From a virus: DNA of 64,000 nt. Every line of letters begins with the position of its first letter. Positions within the stretch are counted from its first letter, which is position 1. The notes under the pieces are model-generated. The model did not search any database and was not told the DNA's origin. It was given only the letters and a program-made list of their open reading frames with translations. Where the stretch lies: positions 52,951-116,950 of IMG/VR virus record IMGVR_UViG_3300023174_000082. The stretch is one strand, 5' to 3'. A program made the translations under genes and the position numbers. Shown here piece after piece: positions 210 through 5,695 of this stretch.

Positions 210-644
210 TTACTCCAGTGGTCCTAGTATTTCAAATCCCGCCATGCTGGATTTGTATAAGTGTGCTTGCTCAAGATACAGGTATTGGAACCCTCGAGCC
301 TTGTAGATAGCACACTCTGCTTTCATTGTTTCAATTCCTAATCTCAACTTAGGATTGTTGTAGTTCCATGCAAATTGATCGCACAGTGCGTTATGATCAT
401 CATAGCGTTTGATTAACGAGAATGCAACCAATCGGTCATGGTCGTAGTACCCAATCACATCAGTCATTGGATCTGTATATCTGCTGTCAAATATGGGCAT
501 TACACTTGCAAAATGTTTGTATTTGCAATAGTCTCTATAGATAGAGTTTAGCTGTTTGATATCAGGGTTAAACAAGTACTCCCACTTTACACTTGGTGTA
601 TAGTTGGTTTGGCTAAGATCAATTCGTGCAAACTGATAGCTCAT
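210..644 (-). CDS. GNAT-fold-like protein (arginyl-tRNA-protein transferase C-domain resemblance)
   Basis: This 144-residue protein has a pattern of strands typical of a half GNAT fold. A central DVIGYYDHDRLVAFSLIKRY segment could be strands 2-4, and a late GFQYLYLEQAH strand is followed by YKSSMAGFEILGP. The late segment resembles the GLPYLYLGY...F.P region of arginyl/leucyl-tRNA-protein transferases and related GNAT proteins. No clear acetyl-CoA pyrophosphate loop (Q/RxxGxG/A) is visible, so catalytic activity is uncertain. Its ATG overlaps the stop of the upstream gene by 4 nt (ATGA), so the two are probably translationally coupled within the gp26 operon. The function is inferred only at fold level. 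Confidence 0.6.
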   Translation of the reverse strand: MSYQFARIDLSQTNYTPSVKWEYLFNPDIKQLNSIYRDYCKYKHFASVMPIFDSRYTDPMTDVIGYYDHDRLVAFSLIKRYDDHNALCDQFAWNYNNPKLRLGIETMKAECAIYKARGFQYLYLEQAHLYKSSMAGFEILGPLE

Positions 645-1141
645 CGTGGATCCCGGCGATGTTGGAACAATCCAGTAAGATATTCTTCTGGCCAGTTGTG
701 ATAGAATCCCTTCTCAGCCATTGTTCGGGCCTTGGCATCAAGATCGCTGAGACTCTGCACCAACGCCAGTGCATATGTTCCTTGGTTCATACACACGCCG
801 TTGATCATTTCTACATCTGAGGGATGGTCTTCTAGTGCAAGAAGATCCTTGCGTAGTAAAAATTCTTTGTTGGCAATCTTCAAACTGTCACTGAACAATT
901 CATATGGCCATTCTACTGGATTGTATGCATAGATTACAACTTCCCATTTGCCCATACCCCAGTGTGCTTGATTTTTTAAATCAAAATAAGGATGCACACC
1001 CACTCGCACATCGTAGCTTTTTTTCATTCTTGCTGAGCGTGCGTATGGGCAAGGAGCCCAGCCTCCTAAAGCAGGATGTGGAACTTCCACAAAGTTCACA
1101 ATCCAGTTTTCAATATCTTGAGTAACTGTTTCTATATCCAT
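641..1141 (-). CDS. Conserved-looking hypothetical protein with a CPYAR motif
   Basis: This is a 166-residue soluble protein with no signal peptide or membrane segment. The N-terminal third has a Trp/Pro-rich stretch with GGWAPCPYARSARMKKSYDV. The middle holds a WEVVIYAYNP strand, and the C-terminal half is mainly helical, with MAEKGFYHNWPEEYLTGLF near the end. I do not recognise the family with certainty. The small Cys-Pro-Tyr-Ala-Arg motif may be a metal or active-site feature. It overlaps gp51 upstream by 1-3 nt and the next gene by 4 nt, so it belongs to the same compact operon as the tail-assembly genes, although it is not itself an obvious structural protein. Confidence 0.65.
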   Translation of the reverse strand: MDIETVTQDIENWIVNFVEVPHPALGGWAPCPYARSARMKKSYDVRVGVHPYFDLKNQAHWGMGKWEVVIYAYNPVEWPYELFSDSLKIANKEFLLRKDLLALEDHPSDVEMINGVCMNQGTYALALVQSLSDLDAKARTMAEKGFYHNWPEEYLTGLFQHRRDPR

Positions 1142-1371
1142 TAGAAATACGGCAATTTTGTTTTGTTGGTCGTTTCCATGTTTTCTTCAGCAATCTTGCT
1201 AATCATTTTTCTTTCAGTGAAACTTAGTGCCAGCACCTGATCGTAGGTGAGTCCGCCGCGCATCAACCAAGCCAATCTTAAACTGTTTGATCTAATTGCG
1301 TTGGCCTCCTGATCAAGGCTGTCAATGTACTCGCCAATTTCCTCTACTGGGAGGATCAGGAGGCGGCTTCG
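1141..1371 (-). CDS. 51: gp51-like baseplate-hub assembly protein, probably made as a gp26-gp51 frameshift fusion
   Basis: The frame encodes about 76 residues downstream of gp26 in the -1 frame. It contains NSLRLAWLMRGGLTYDQ, then ALSFTERKMISKIAEEN, and ends TTNKTKLPYF. This pattern (helix, MRGGL, S-x-E-R, ENxxTT, LPxF) matches my memory of the short gp51-like protein that follows gp26 in cyanophage-type T4 phages. No ATG lies upstream of the conserved region; the first ATG would remove roughly half of it. The frame runs directly out of a canonical T TTT TTC heptamer at the end of gp26, so a -1 frameshift would give a fusion of about 353 residues. The alternative is an independent unusual start, for example the in-frame ATT at 1296-1294, which is 8 nt after AGGAGG. 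Confidence 0.75.
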   Translation of the reverse strand, partial: RSRLLILPVEEIGEYIDSLDQEANAIRSNSLRLAWLMRGGLTYDQVLALSFTERKMISKIAEENMETTNKTKLPYF

Positions 1372-1377
1372 AAAAAA
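1304..1377 (-). promoter_or_regulatory. Predicted programmed -1 ribosomal frameshift signal
   Basis: On the minus strand the gp26 codons AAT TTT TTC form the slippery heptamer T TTT TTC, complementary to 1371-1377. A 6-nt spacer follows (1370-1365). Then comes GCCTCCTGATC (1364-1354), which pairs perfectly over 11 bp with GATCAGGAGGC (1314-1304) across a 39-nt loop. The gp26 stop codon TGA (1358-1356) lies inside the first stem arm. Slipping back one base on this heptamer enters the gp51 frame exactly at CGA. Heptamer, spacer and stem all match the classical architecture of -1 frameshift sites. Confidence 0.75.
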
Positions 1378-2201
1378 TTTGTAAGATCCAGATTCAGTGC
1401 TTGATCATGTTCGTGATTGCATTCACTGCAGGTGAGATGCACAGGTTTGAGTTCTGTACGATTGCGCAATTCAACTGCGTGATCTCTAACAGCAACAAAA
1501 ATTTGACGATCGCAGTTTTGCAAAAATTCATCAATGTGCTCGGACTCTGACACAACAGACTGTGGTGTACGAATTGCTGAAATTGAGTACTTGAGAGCTC
1601 GCATGGTCAGCTGAGTCAACGTTTTCATCACTTCGGCTAGTTTTTGTAACTTGTCGTCTTCACTGAGTTCAGTATCCATGCTAATGTTGCGCATCATGCG
1701 TTGATTTTCAAATTGCTCAAGATTGATTTCGTTTTGTTTTTCATAACTCATTGGATGAAAATAAATTTCCAAATCTCCATAAGTCACTGTGGCAGAAAAG
1801 TCAGGCATGGTCAACTGATCCAGTGCATTGCGCAAGTCTAACGCAAAACTCTCAATGTGTTTGCAAGCAGGACAAGTGGTTTCAATTTCAAGCTCGTGAC
1901 CGTAGCTGGCAATACGAATAGCAACCAGGATAGAGTTTAAATCTGCCACAGGAGCATGCCAGGCATTTTTAATTGACGGCACACAACTGTGTATCACATT
2001 GACCACAGCTTGCCCGCTAAACAGTGCATCTGGCGTGCGATAGGTAATTTCGTCAATGGCTGTCATGGGATAAACAGGCAGCTCACCGTTTTGAGGCACG
2101 TCTAAGCTGCCTTCTGGCCAGTATTTGCCCTCGCTGGGCAACCGCAAGTAAATTGCTGGTTGTCTAAAAAATTGTCTAAGTGGATTGTGATTTTGGTTCA
2201 T
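1356..2201 (-). CDS. 26: gp26-like baseplate hub / tail assembly protein with zinc-ribbon cysteines
   Basis: This 281-residue protein begins with NPLRQFFRQPAIYLRLPSEG and continues with LPVYPMTAIDEITYRTPDAL and VIHSCVPSIKNAW. These blocks are characteristic of the T4-like gp26 family (T4_baseplate, PF12322). Two CxxC pairs, CPACK near residue 110 and CSECNH near residue 258, probably bind one zinc. It is longer than T4 gp26 (208 residues). It is the first gene of the minus-strand operon and is divergent from the tape-measure gene, with only 41 nt between them. Its last codons carry the frameshift heptamer, so two products are expected: gp26 alone, and a minority gp26-gp51 fusion. The role in tail/baseplate assembly comes from family knowledge; the chaperone analogy is inference. 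Confidence 0.85.
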   Translation of the reverse strand: MNQNHNPLRQFFRQPAIYLRLPSEGKYWPEGSLDVPQNGELPVYPMTAIDEITYRTPDALFSGQAVVNVIHSCVPSIKNAWHAPVADLNSILVAIRIASYGHELEIETTCPACKHIESFALDLRNALDQLTMPDFSATVTYGDLEIYFHPMSYEKQNEINLEQFENQRMMRNISMDTELSEDDKLQKLAEVMKTLTQLTMRALKYSISAIRTPQSVVSESEHIDEFLQNCDRQIFVAVRDHAVELRNRTELKPVHLTCSECNHEHDQALNLDLTNFFEAAS

Positions 2202-2242: not shown

Positions 2243-5200
2243 ATGGCGGACGTAAATCAAGCATCACAAGAAATGGCTGAAGTCATAGCACAAGTGTCTG
2301 ACGACCTTAGACGTTTTGGGCGAGTTACCGAAGATACTCAAGCAGCACTGGCAGCTGGCAGTTTTCGCCGAGCAAAAGAACTTGACAAAGCCAGTGCGTT
2401 AACAGCAGGTGCGTTAGGAAATCTGGCAGGTGCAGGTCTAGCAGCCGGCAAAGCCATGTATGATGGCCAAAAAGGCGCCGCGGCATTTAACAGTTCACTT
2501 GACAGCATGAGCAAAGCAGTTACCGCAGCCGGTGCTGCGTTGACTTTCTTGGTTCCTGGCGGATTTTTAATCAAAGCTCTAATTGGCCTGGGCACAGCCG
2601 CAGTTGGCGCCAGTATTAAGATGACTCAAGCGGCCAACGACATGGCCGACAATTTGTTCTCAGCCAATAGCAAAATGGCCAAATCTGGCCTGGCAGCATC
2701 AGATGGCATGACTGGCATATTCCGCGACGCCAAGAAGCTTGGCCTGAGCATGAAAGAGTTGGGTGTATACACCAATGCAGTAGCAGCCAACAGCGCAGAA
2801 TTGGCCTTGTTCAAGGGCACAGCATTTGAAGGACGTAAAGCATTTGCTGACATTGGTGCGTCAATGAAGCCATTCCGCGCCAGCTTGGAAGGCGCAGGTA
2901 TCAGTCTTGAAGATCAAATTGCAGGCACTGCTGGCTATTTGAGATTGCAAACTCAAATAGGACAAAGTCAAAACAAAAGCACAACAGAACTAGCCAATGG
3001 TGCTAGAAAATATCTAGTTGAAATGGATGGACTCAGCAAGCTCACAGGCATGCAACGTGAGGAGATGGAAAAACAAATGGAAGCTGCTAGAAGCGAGCAG
3101 CGTTTCCGGGCCAAACTAGATGCCATGCGAGCATCTGGAGATGCCCGACAAATTGCTGCTGCTGATAAGATGGAAAGAGCCAACATTCTTATCAGCAAAC
3201 AAGCACCAGAGTTAGGACAAGCATTTAGAGATGCCAGTTCAGGTGTGCTCACAAGTGATGCAGCAGTTAAAGGGCTGATTGGCACACAAGGCAAGCTGTT
3301 ACAAGTGACTGATCAATTGGCAAATGGTCAAATTGACGAGTATCAAACGTTCAAACAGTTGGGTCAGGCTGCTGGACAGTTTGGTAAAGACATGAACTTT
3401 ACAGCTCAGCTGGGCTTGCTGAATGATTTCAGCATTGATTATGCGCAGGCAATGAAAATTGGTATTGCCACAACAAAAGACACTTCTGAACTGGCTGCGT
3501 TAATTGCAGAAGAACAAAAGAAACAAATGGGCTCGCAGAATGACGCCAACACCAAGGCCATGGCTGATCTCAGAGAAAAACAACGCAATCTCAATGAGAT
3601 GCTGGAAACTACAATAGCTAACCAGATGGGCACAGCTATATCAATGAGCAACGCTCTAGCCAATGCCACAACACCTATTGCCACGGCATTTGACAGACTT
3701 GCACCATTGATGGAAAAATTCATAATCCAAATGACAAAACTCACCGACTTCTTGGCAGAAAAACTGGGATATATTGTTAACAAGAGTATTGATGTAGTAG
3801 AAGCCACACAAAAAGACGGCATGGGCGGATTTTACAGATCTGGTGGCAGTGAATTAGTTGGGTCTGGTGTTGGTGCAGTAGCTGGTGGAGTAAAAGGCGC
3901 AGCCATGGGTGCGGCTCTAGGTAGTGTGGTGCCAGTGCTTGGCACAGCTATTGGTGCCGCCCTGGGCGGATTGGTTGGTGGTGTGGGTGGTTATTATGGG
4001 GGCAAGGTATTGGGTATGGGCGCTGATGCACTAGGTACCGCAGTAACTCCTCCTGGGCGTGCCGCCGGTGGTCCTGTCAGCAGACGAAATCCCTATATTG
4101 TGGGCGAGCGTGGCCCAGAACTCATGGTTCCTGAACAAGCAGGAAAAATTATCAACAATGACAAACTAAGCAAGATGTTTGAGTCCATGGCTTCTTCTGT
4201 ATCTTCAGGACAAGTTAGTGTTGATATGATATCTCAAGTGATGGGCAGCTCTGTAACTGTTGTAACCACAACCAATAGCGAACTGACTGACAATTTAAAA
4301 ACTACACAAAACGTTGGCAACACATATCAAGCAATACTGAAATCTGTTGACGAGCTAAATGACAAAACCAAAAAAACAACAGAGTCTGCAATTACAGCTC
4401 AACGAGAAACTCTAACAGACATACAACGCATTGAACGTTACACTGATCAAGACATGAAACGCACAAAAGAGTTTGTGGATTTTCATAAAAAATATCTTGA
4501 CAGTATCACCCAGATATTGGGTGAAAACTTAGAGCTATTGCAAGAACAATCAGAACAAAGTGGTTCTGCTGGTGCAGGCGGCGCTCCAGGCATGGGCGGA
4601 GGTACAGGACTGAAAATTCCAGCAGCGCCACCAGCCGGAGGCATGGGCGGAGGTACAGGGGTTAGGGCTGGCGGCGGCCAAGGCGTACAAGTTAAAAATC
4701 AAAACGATTTGTTGTCCATGGGTCTTAAATTTGATCCCAAACGTGATGTACAAGCAGAAGGTGCGGCAATCAGTCCCAAGTTAATTGAGCTGGCCAAGAA
4801 CGTTCAAAGTCTCATACCAGGATTTTCAGCATTCACAGGAATGAATGATCAGTACCACAACGAAAAGCATCCACGAAGCTTGCACGCCAAAGGTCAAGCC
4901 ATGGACTTTGTGCTAAACAAAAAGCCCACAAAAGAAGAAGGTGAAAGCATTGTTAGTTGGCTCAAACAGTCAGGAGCCAGTCTTGCCTTAGATGAATACA
5001 ACAACGCTAATCAGCACACAACAGGCGGCCACTTCCATGCAGAAATTCCTGCATTTGGCGACGGAGGCATGGTAGACAAAGCCACACTGGCGTTGATTGG
5101 TGAAAAAGGTCCAGAAGCTGTGATTCCCATGGACGGCAAAGAAATTCCACTGAATATATCCAAGCCAATTCCAATCAAGCTGGATCTCAAAGATGTATTT

Positions 5201-5695
5201 GCCGAAGGAGGCATTGGCCCAACATTTGGCGGCATGAACGAATACACTGGTTACAACATGGGCCACATGTCAACTGATTTGAGTGCAGTGAAAGAAATTG
5301 CTGCCAGCATGGGCGCCTTTGACAAAGCATCACAAACCATCACAGATCCAGCAACCTGGAAAGAAATTATAAATTCAGGCATTGCTATGAATTACGATCT
5401 TGGCATGGCCAAAATTGGTACTCAAATGGGAGACGGTATAGGACAAGAAATGGCACAACGTCTGAATGACATTGTGGCTGAAAATGGTGTGAGTCAAAAG
5501 GAAGCATTTGATATCATGCGAACAGAGTTTGTAGAAGCCATGAAAACAATCACAACAGAAATGTTCCAGAAAATGGCCAAAGAATCAGCCACACCAGAAA
5601 CAGATGCGCTGATTGCTGGCATTGATGCGCTAATTGCCAAGCAGAGTGAAGCCAACGACATCAGCAAGAAGATACTCCAGGTGAGTGCAAACTAA
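2243..5695 (+). CDS. Tape-measure-like tail protein with an M15-type peptidase-like domain
   Basis: The protein has 1150 residues. The first 500 are alanine-rich and helical. A glycine-zipper hydrophobic stretch follows at about 538-598. Next is the GERGPELMVP motif (about 621) that recurs in phage tape measures, then coiled coil to about 770, a Gly/Ala/Pro linker, and a compact domain at about 835-940. That domain has SLHAKGQAMDF (His881, Asp888) and GGHFHAEI (His930, His932), the Hx6D...HxH zinc pattern of D-Ala-D-Ala carboxypeptidase-like enzymes. A second GEKGPEAVIP motif lies near 952. T4 gp29 is about half this length, so the virion tail would be longer or the extra domains would be appended. 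Position between gp26/gp51 and the head genes fits a tape measure. The peptidoglycan-cutting role during injection is inferred. Confidence 0.8.
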   Translation: MADVNQASQEMAEVIAQVSDDLRRFGRVTEDTQAALAAGSFRRAKELDKASALTAGALGNLAGAGLAAGKAMYDGQKGAAAFNSSLDSMSKAVTAAGAALTFLVPGGFLIKALIGLGTAAVGASIKMTQAANDMADNLFSANSKMAKSGLAASDGMTGIFRDAKKLGLSMKELGVYTNAVAANSAELALFKGTAFEGRKAFADIGASMKPFRASLEGAGISLEDQIAGTAGYLRLQTQIGQSQNKSTTELANGARKYLVEMDGLSKLTGMQREEMEKQMEAARSEQRFRAKLDAMRASGDARQIAAADKMERANILISKQAPELGQAFRDASSGVLTSDAAVKGLIGTQGKLLQVTDQLANGQIDEYQTFKQLGQAAGQFGKDMNFTAQLGLLNDFSIDYAQAMKIGIATTKDTSELAALIAEEQKKQMGSQNDANTKAMADLREKQRNLNEMLETTIANQMGTAISMSNALANATTPIATAFDRLAPLMEKFIIQMTKLTDFLAEKLGYIVNKSIDVVEATQKDGMGGFYRSGGSELVGSGVGAVAGGVKGAAMGAALGSVVPVLGTAIGAALGGLVGGVGGYYGGKVLGMGADALGTAVTPPGRAAGGPVSRRNPYIVGERGPELMVPEQAGKIINNDKLSKMFESMASSVSSGQVSVDMISQVMGSSVTVVTTTNSELTDNLKTTQNVGNTYQAILKSVDELNDKTKKTTESAITAQRETLTDIQRIERYTDQDMKRTKEFVDFHKKYLDSITQILGENLELLQEQSEQSGSAGAGGAPGMGGGTGLKIPAAPPAGGMGGGTGVRAGGGQGVQVKNQNDLLSMGLKFDPKRDVQAEGAAISPKLIELAKNVQSLIPGFSAFTGMNDQYHNEKHPRSLHAKGQAMDFVLNKKPTKEEGESIVSWLKQSGASLALDEYNNANQHTTGGHFHAEIPAFGDGGMVDKATLALIGEKGPEAVIPMDGKEIPLNISKPIPIKLDLKDVFAEGGIGPTFGGMNEYTGYNMGHMSTDLSAVKEIAASMGAFDKASQTITDPATWKEIINSGIAMNYDLGMAKIGTQMGDGIGQEMAQRLNDIVAENGVSQKEAFDIMRTEFVEAMKTITTEMFQKMAKESATPETDALIAGIDALIAKQSEANDISKKILQVSAN

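Follow-up and report, generated by a model that had tools for sequence, protein, structure and literature searches.

A probable -1 frameshift joins gp26 to a downstream reading frame in a jumbo T4-like phage

A single gene of a jumbo T4-like phage very probably encodes both a short and a long tail-assembly chaperone (TAC-N and TAC-NC), with the long form produced by a programmed -1 frameshift at the sequence T TTT TTC. We base this on comparative sequence analysis of a window of 64,000 nucleotides, the final 64 kb of a 116,950-bp IMG/VR record in which genes for portal, major head protein, and tail sheath can be identified. Records with a gp26 97% identical to that of the window are up to 364 kb long. 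A sequence-only reading of the window had proposed that gp26 and a gp26-gp51 fusion are the T4-type equivalents of the lambda proteins G and GT, and this proposal is supported by the heptamer, by a stem at a fixed distance from it, by a conserved -1 open reading frame, and by the PF12322 paralogy of two T4 proteins. The proposal is right but is not new, as the principle was published in 2022.

The gp26 junction in the window

The gp26-like gene occupies positions 1356 to 2201 on the minus strand and encodes 281 aa. The protein matches Pfam family PF12322 (E 5.4e-15, 56.1 bits, above the curated cutoff of 24.5) and the baseplate hub family PHROG_150 (E 4e-18), while no lambda tail-assembly chaperone family was among its Pfam matches. 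The AlphaFold model is confident (pLDDT 89.7), and the predicted fold is related to those of other phage gp26/gp51-type proteins. Searches of solved structures with window gp26 returned no PDB fold match at E<=0.001, and the same searches with T4 gp51 found no relative. Because the predicted gp26 fold is without a solved relative, it provides no structural tie to lambda G.

On the minus strand, the 3' end of gp26 reads ACA AAT TTT TTC GAA GCC GCC TCC TGA. The heptamer T TTT TTC (1377 to 1371) lies in the frame-0 phase needed for tandem tRNA slippage (X XXY YYZ) and is followed by the 6-nt spacer GAAGCC (1370 to 1365), a distance common to most jumbo-phage homologues and within the 5-9 nt expected for a stimulatory structure. 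Next comes the 5' arm of a perfect 11-bp stem, GCCTCCTGATC (1364 to 1354), which pairs with the 3' arm GATCAGGAGGC (1314 to 1304) and contains the gp26 stop codon TGA (1358 to 1356). RNA folding of 1385 to 1295 gave -26.2 kcal/mol (z -2.76), and none of 200 shuffled sequences folded as well. The heptamer in phase, the spacer, and the perfect stem had all been described from the letters alone, and each was confirmed on the minus strand. Two details needed correction. The gene was said to end in AAT TTT TTC, and those codons do form the heptamer, but four further codons (GAA GCC GCC TCC) precede the TGA; the -1 frame was said to open exactly at the heptamer, and an open frame is indeed present there, but it is already open about 9 codons upstream.

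From the heptamer, the -1 frame runs from 1371 to 1144 and encodes 76 aa before the stop TAA (1143 to 1141), so that the complete extension (1371 to 1141, minus strand; TAC-C, in the position of gp51) would give a fused product of 353 aa composed of gp26 residues 1-277 and these 76. The next gene downstream (641 to 1141, minus strand) has an ATG that overlaps the extension stop as TAATG. Divergence of the -1 frame by codon position was 0.35, 0.23, and 0.56 in 25 comparisons with the relatives of the window, and the higher value at the third position means that the extension bears the mark of a translated frame. The first ATG, GTG, or TTG in this frame is a TTG at 1275, 32 codons past the slip site, while the invariant extension residues F1, F2, R3, L6, and L7 all lie upstream of any start codon. 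The extension model, computed like that of gp26 as a separate chain rather than as part of the fused protein, is confident and all-helical (pLDDT 88.5); initiation at the first start codon (residue 35) would truncate its first long helix (residues 11-40). Searched alone against Pfam and PHROGs, the extension returned nothing significant.

Beside gp26, a divergent open reading frame on the plus strand (2243 to 5695) encodes a tape-measure-like protein of 1150 aa, with weak matches to PHROG tape-measure families (E 9e-8 and 1e-5). It starts 41 nt from gp26. A position like that of lambda G/GT had been claimed for the gp26 gene. The gene does adjoin a tape-measure-like gene, but the arrangement is divergent, as it is in other jumbo phages, rather than upstream on the same strand; the same divergent order of gp26 and a large protein was seen by synteny in 121Q, CBB, RaK2, PA5oct, and Phosso. 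Read on the minus strand, the 41-nt gap (2202 to 2242) contains TATAAGTA, and read on the plus strand it contains CATAAATA; the two resemble T4-type late promoters pointing both ways.

Conservation of the junction and competing explanations

Homologues were collected from isolate genomes and IMG/VR and divided into group A (jumbo phages), group B (cyanophages and rhizobiophages), group C (mixed, including Ackermannviridae), and group D (vibriophage-like phages and others). An in-phase T TTT TT followed by C, T, A, or G was present at the gp26 end in 340 of the 353 loci and in 148 of 156 representatives less than 70% identical to each other, being kept in jumbo phages, cyanophages, KVP40-type vibriophages, rhizobiophages, and many uncultured phages. 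The codon before the Phe-Phe pair of the junction encodes S, N, D, R, H, T, A, or G, yet its last base is T. Phe-Phe pairs are slippery at the junction in 140 of 142 cases, compared with 52 of 442 elsewhere in the same loci (Fisher p 1e-87), and the second Phe codon at the junction is TTC in 117 cases and TTT in 23. Moreover, in none of the 353 loci does the -1 frame end less than 95 nt beyond the gp26 stop. Conservation of this kind excludes chance as the source of the junction architecture.

Since a long loop often separates the stem arms (median 47 nt), the folding z-score of a 60-nt segment alone is a weak signal, and the stem was therefore surveyed by scanning for the best helix at each offset of the 5' arm from the heptamer. 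In group A, the best helix averaged -15.2 kcal at exactly +6 nt, against about -3.9 at other offsets (sd 1.2), and nine different 5'-arm sequences, mostly GCCTCCT, retain pairing. CBB and Munch, which belong to a minority of jumbo members, have weak stems. The helix of group B peaks at +7 to +10, and groups C and D gave little stem signal. The structural stimulator is thus strong in jumbo phages and cyanophages and weaker elsewhere.

The lack of an ATG for the conserved part of the extension had also been put forward. It is correct for the window, where no start occurs for 32 codons, but it is not a rule of the family: a -1-frame ATG lies at or before the junction in 36 of the 148 slippery homologues, and we rejected a missing ATG as a general diagnostic. 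Relatives that combine a start codon with absence of the heptamer were found in the Ackermannviridae-type clade only. Seven members of this clade (L042, L207, L208, L210, L217, L218, and L233) have no T TTT TTN, and their gp26 ends in GTT TT[T/C/A] NNN stop. The -1 frame is conserved in them, and several have no nearby start (none within 60 nt in L217); judging from the motif, these relatives may use a GTT TTY slip site as reported for Vandenendeviridae. In Cygsa01, BX-1, and K475 (L040, L041, and L044), the gp26 stop overlaps the ATG of the -1 frame as TAATG, which suggests translational coupling instead of, or besides, frameshifting.

Two single records depart from the pattern in other ways. 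In a jumbo-group contig (L114), T TTT TCC stands in place of the heptamer while the -1 frame is intact, which is either a natural variant or an error. IME-SM1 (L037, KR560069) has a run of five T, and its annotation fuses the frames into a 280-aa 'gp26'; we set it aside as an example of a phage without the heptamer, as the five T are probably a record error.

It is very unlikely that the extension, annotated in some records as 'gp51 baseplate hub assembly catalyst', is instead translated on its own as a small protein, either from an independent start or by termination and reinitiation after gp26. GenBank does annotate the extension apart in cyanophages and others, the Ackermannviridae-type clade lacks the heptamer and through TAATG gives the -1 frame an ATG in three members, and 36 of the slippery homologues have an ATG at or before the junction. 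In the window, however, the first available start lies inside the predicted long helix, and the most conserved extension residues precede it. For reinitiation, both T TTT TTN and a fixed stem would be superfluous, and T4 gene 51 encodes the fused form as a single gene.

Slippage of RNA polymerase on the T run, rather than of the ribosome, would lead to the same protein, and the conserved core is indeed a run of 6-7 T. Against a shifted message of this origin, which we consider slightly less probable still, stand the maintained X XXY YYZ phase, the preference for TTC over TTT as second codon, which shortens the T run, and the beginning of the stem at the 6 nt typical of ribosomal sites; a run of six T is also short for slippage by a bacterial polymerase. 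Finally, homopolymer runs are error prone, as the record of IME-SM1 with one T too few may illustrate, so a frame break could stem from faulty sequencing or assembly, or from decay of the gene. The chance of this is negligible, because the architecture is shared by hundreds of contigs as well as isolate genomes and the extension is under coding constraint; conservation has already refuted it. Ribosomal -1 frameshifting remains our preferred reading of the junction.

Relation to T4 genes 26 and 51 and to other phages

About 200 residues of T4 gp26 (208 aa) match PF12322, and so do about 200 of T4 gp51 (249 aa), which carries an extra tail; T4 therefore holds the short and the long form as two genes. 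The view that genes 26 and 51 are separate in T4 is accurate in that there are two genes, but gp51 is a full-length gp26 paralogue with a tail and not just a small protein. Among 12 checked records, only T4 had two PF12322 copies, whereas frameshift phages had one, and T4 gene 26, with TTC TTT, lacks a slip site. Vladimirov and colleagues reportedly name T4 genes 26 and 51 and describe frameshifting as conserved in several T4-like groups. In a midpoint-rooted tree with long branches, T4-type gp26 and gp51 grouped together (97/88) and the jumbo group stood alone (100/100). The plain reading is that T4 swapped one frameshifting gene for a duplicated pair, and it is plausible that the frameshift architecture is ancestral, as had been proposed for this phage; because the root of the tree was set by midpoint only, the direction of change is one that we infer. 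In RB43 (L045, 2501-3794), the long (gp51) and short (gp26) paralogues lie in tandem on the same strand, while the T4 order is divergent, making this pair a useful case for the duplication history.

The label 'gp51-like' for the extension of the window rests mostly on architecture. It holds by position and by a short motif, and weakly by sequence: the jumbo-group extension aligned with the T4 gp51 C-terminus at an hhalign probability of 35% over 33 columns, a short segment on the C-terminal side with an E-R motif at its end, compared with 97% for the extensions of groups B, C, and D. A bolder scenario, which we regard as rather unlikely, is that the jumbo TAC-C has an origin other than the T4 gp51 tail, the slippage-dependent half having been replaced and the frameshift and the PF12322 half being shared. 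The GCCTCCT-type stem at exactly +6, which swallows the gp26 stop, would then be a stimulator peculiar to this lineage and adjusted to another ratio of short to long product.

The slip site of lambda is G GGA AAG rather than T TTT TTC, and the lambda extension is longer than the 76 aa of the window; window gp26 has no detectable sequence or fold relation to lambda G/GT. The likeness lies in a short product and a -1 frameshifted long product encoded beside the tape-measure gene (Xu, Hendrix & Duda 2004). In cyanophages, gp26 and 'short gp51' show T TTT TTC and a downstream hairpin as in the window, although they are annotated as two genes and the homology of their extension (about 55-65 aa) with the C-terminus of T4 gp51 is clear. 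Sullivan et al. (2010, PMC3037559) had observed that, relative to T4 gp51, the gp51 of cyanophages and marine vibriophages is missing ~200 aa at its start; cyanophage 'gp51' looked ~200 residues short because gp26 supplies that part via the frameshift. The TAC genes of Vandenendeviridae and Andersonviridae (PMC12846349) follow the same -1 logic at the 3' end of TAC-N beside the tape measure, but their motif, GTTTTT, differs from the heptamer of the window and resembles the GTT TTY of the Ackermannviridae-type clade.

As credited in PMC12846349, poly-T frameshift signals in T4-like TAC-N genes were reported by Vladimirov, Gautam & Davidson 2022 (Virology 566:9-15). According to papers that cite it, the same study identified the TAC genes of T4-like phages, some of which have separate short and fused long genes. 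The T4-like TAC-N and TAC-NC (genes 26 and 51) share PF12322, poly-T slip sites, and the logic of short and long forms with the window, T4 itself having two genes where the window phage has one frameshifting gene. We did not find frameshifting reported in print for RaK2-, 121Q-, PA5oct-, or Atu_ph07-like jumbo phages, which the 2022 study may cover, and papers on CBB, Atu_ph07, MIJ3, and XacN1 and an overview of jumbo phages never mention it. The GenBank records of CBB, Munch, XacN1, 121Q, and cyanophages show the extension as a gene of its own, labelled hypothetical or 'baseplate hub assembly catalyst', and those of RaK2 and PA5oct leave it unannotated.

Proposed function and implications

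If the junction works as its sequence suggests, most ribosomes would read gp26 through to the TGA and release the 281-aa TAC-N. A minority would pause at the stem 6 nt past the heptamer, both tRNA-Phe would slip back one base, and translation of 76 further codons would yield the 353-aa TAC-NC. By analogy with lambda G/GT, both forms would coat the tape-measure protein during assembly of the tail tube, and neither would be expected in the virion. Slippage and its efficiency, the binding of the tape measure, and a division of labour between the forms are what we infer. The tape-measure neighbourhood, the predicted short and long forms, and the failure to detect gp26 in virions of other jumbo phages fit an identity as TAC-N and TAC-NC. 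Both gp26 and gp51 of T4 have been classed as hub assembly chaperones, and assembly requires gp51 although the particle does not contain it (PMC3004832). Mass spectrometry of CBB virions identified 55 proteins and no gp26, whereas the adjacent large protein CBB_251 was represented by 29 peptides (PMC5259590), an absence that is weak evidence. Likewise, gp26 was undetected in the virions of XacN1 and RaK2, for which the authors suggest low abundance (PMC5852040).

The published T4-like mechanism is extended to a large and poorly annotated group of jumbo phages in which the long form is unannotated or recorded as hypothetical. For annotation, T TTT TTN at the end of gp26 can be read as one gene with two products. 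These phages offer a range of solutions, namely the frameshift, the duplication in T4, and another mode in the Ackermannviridae-type clade, through which the role of the long form can be tested.
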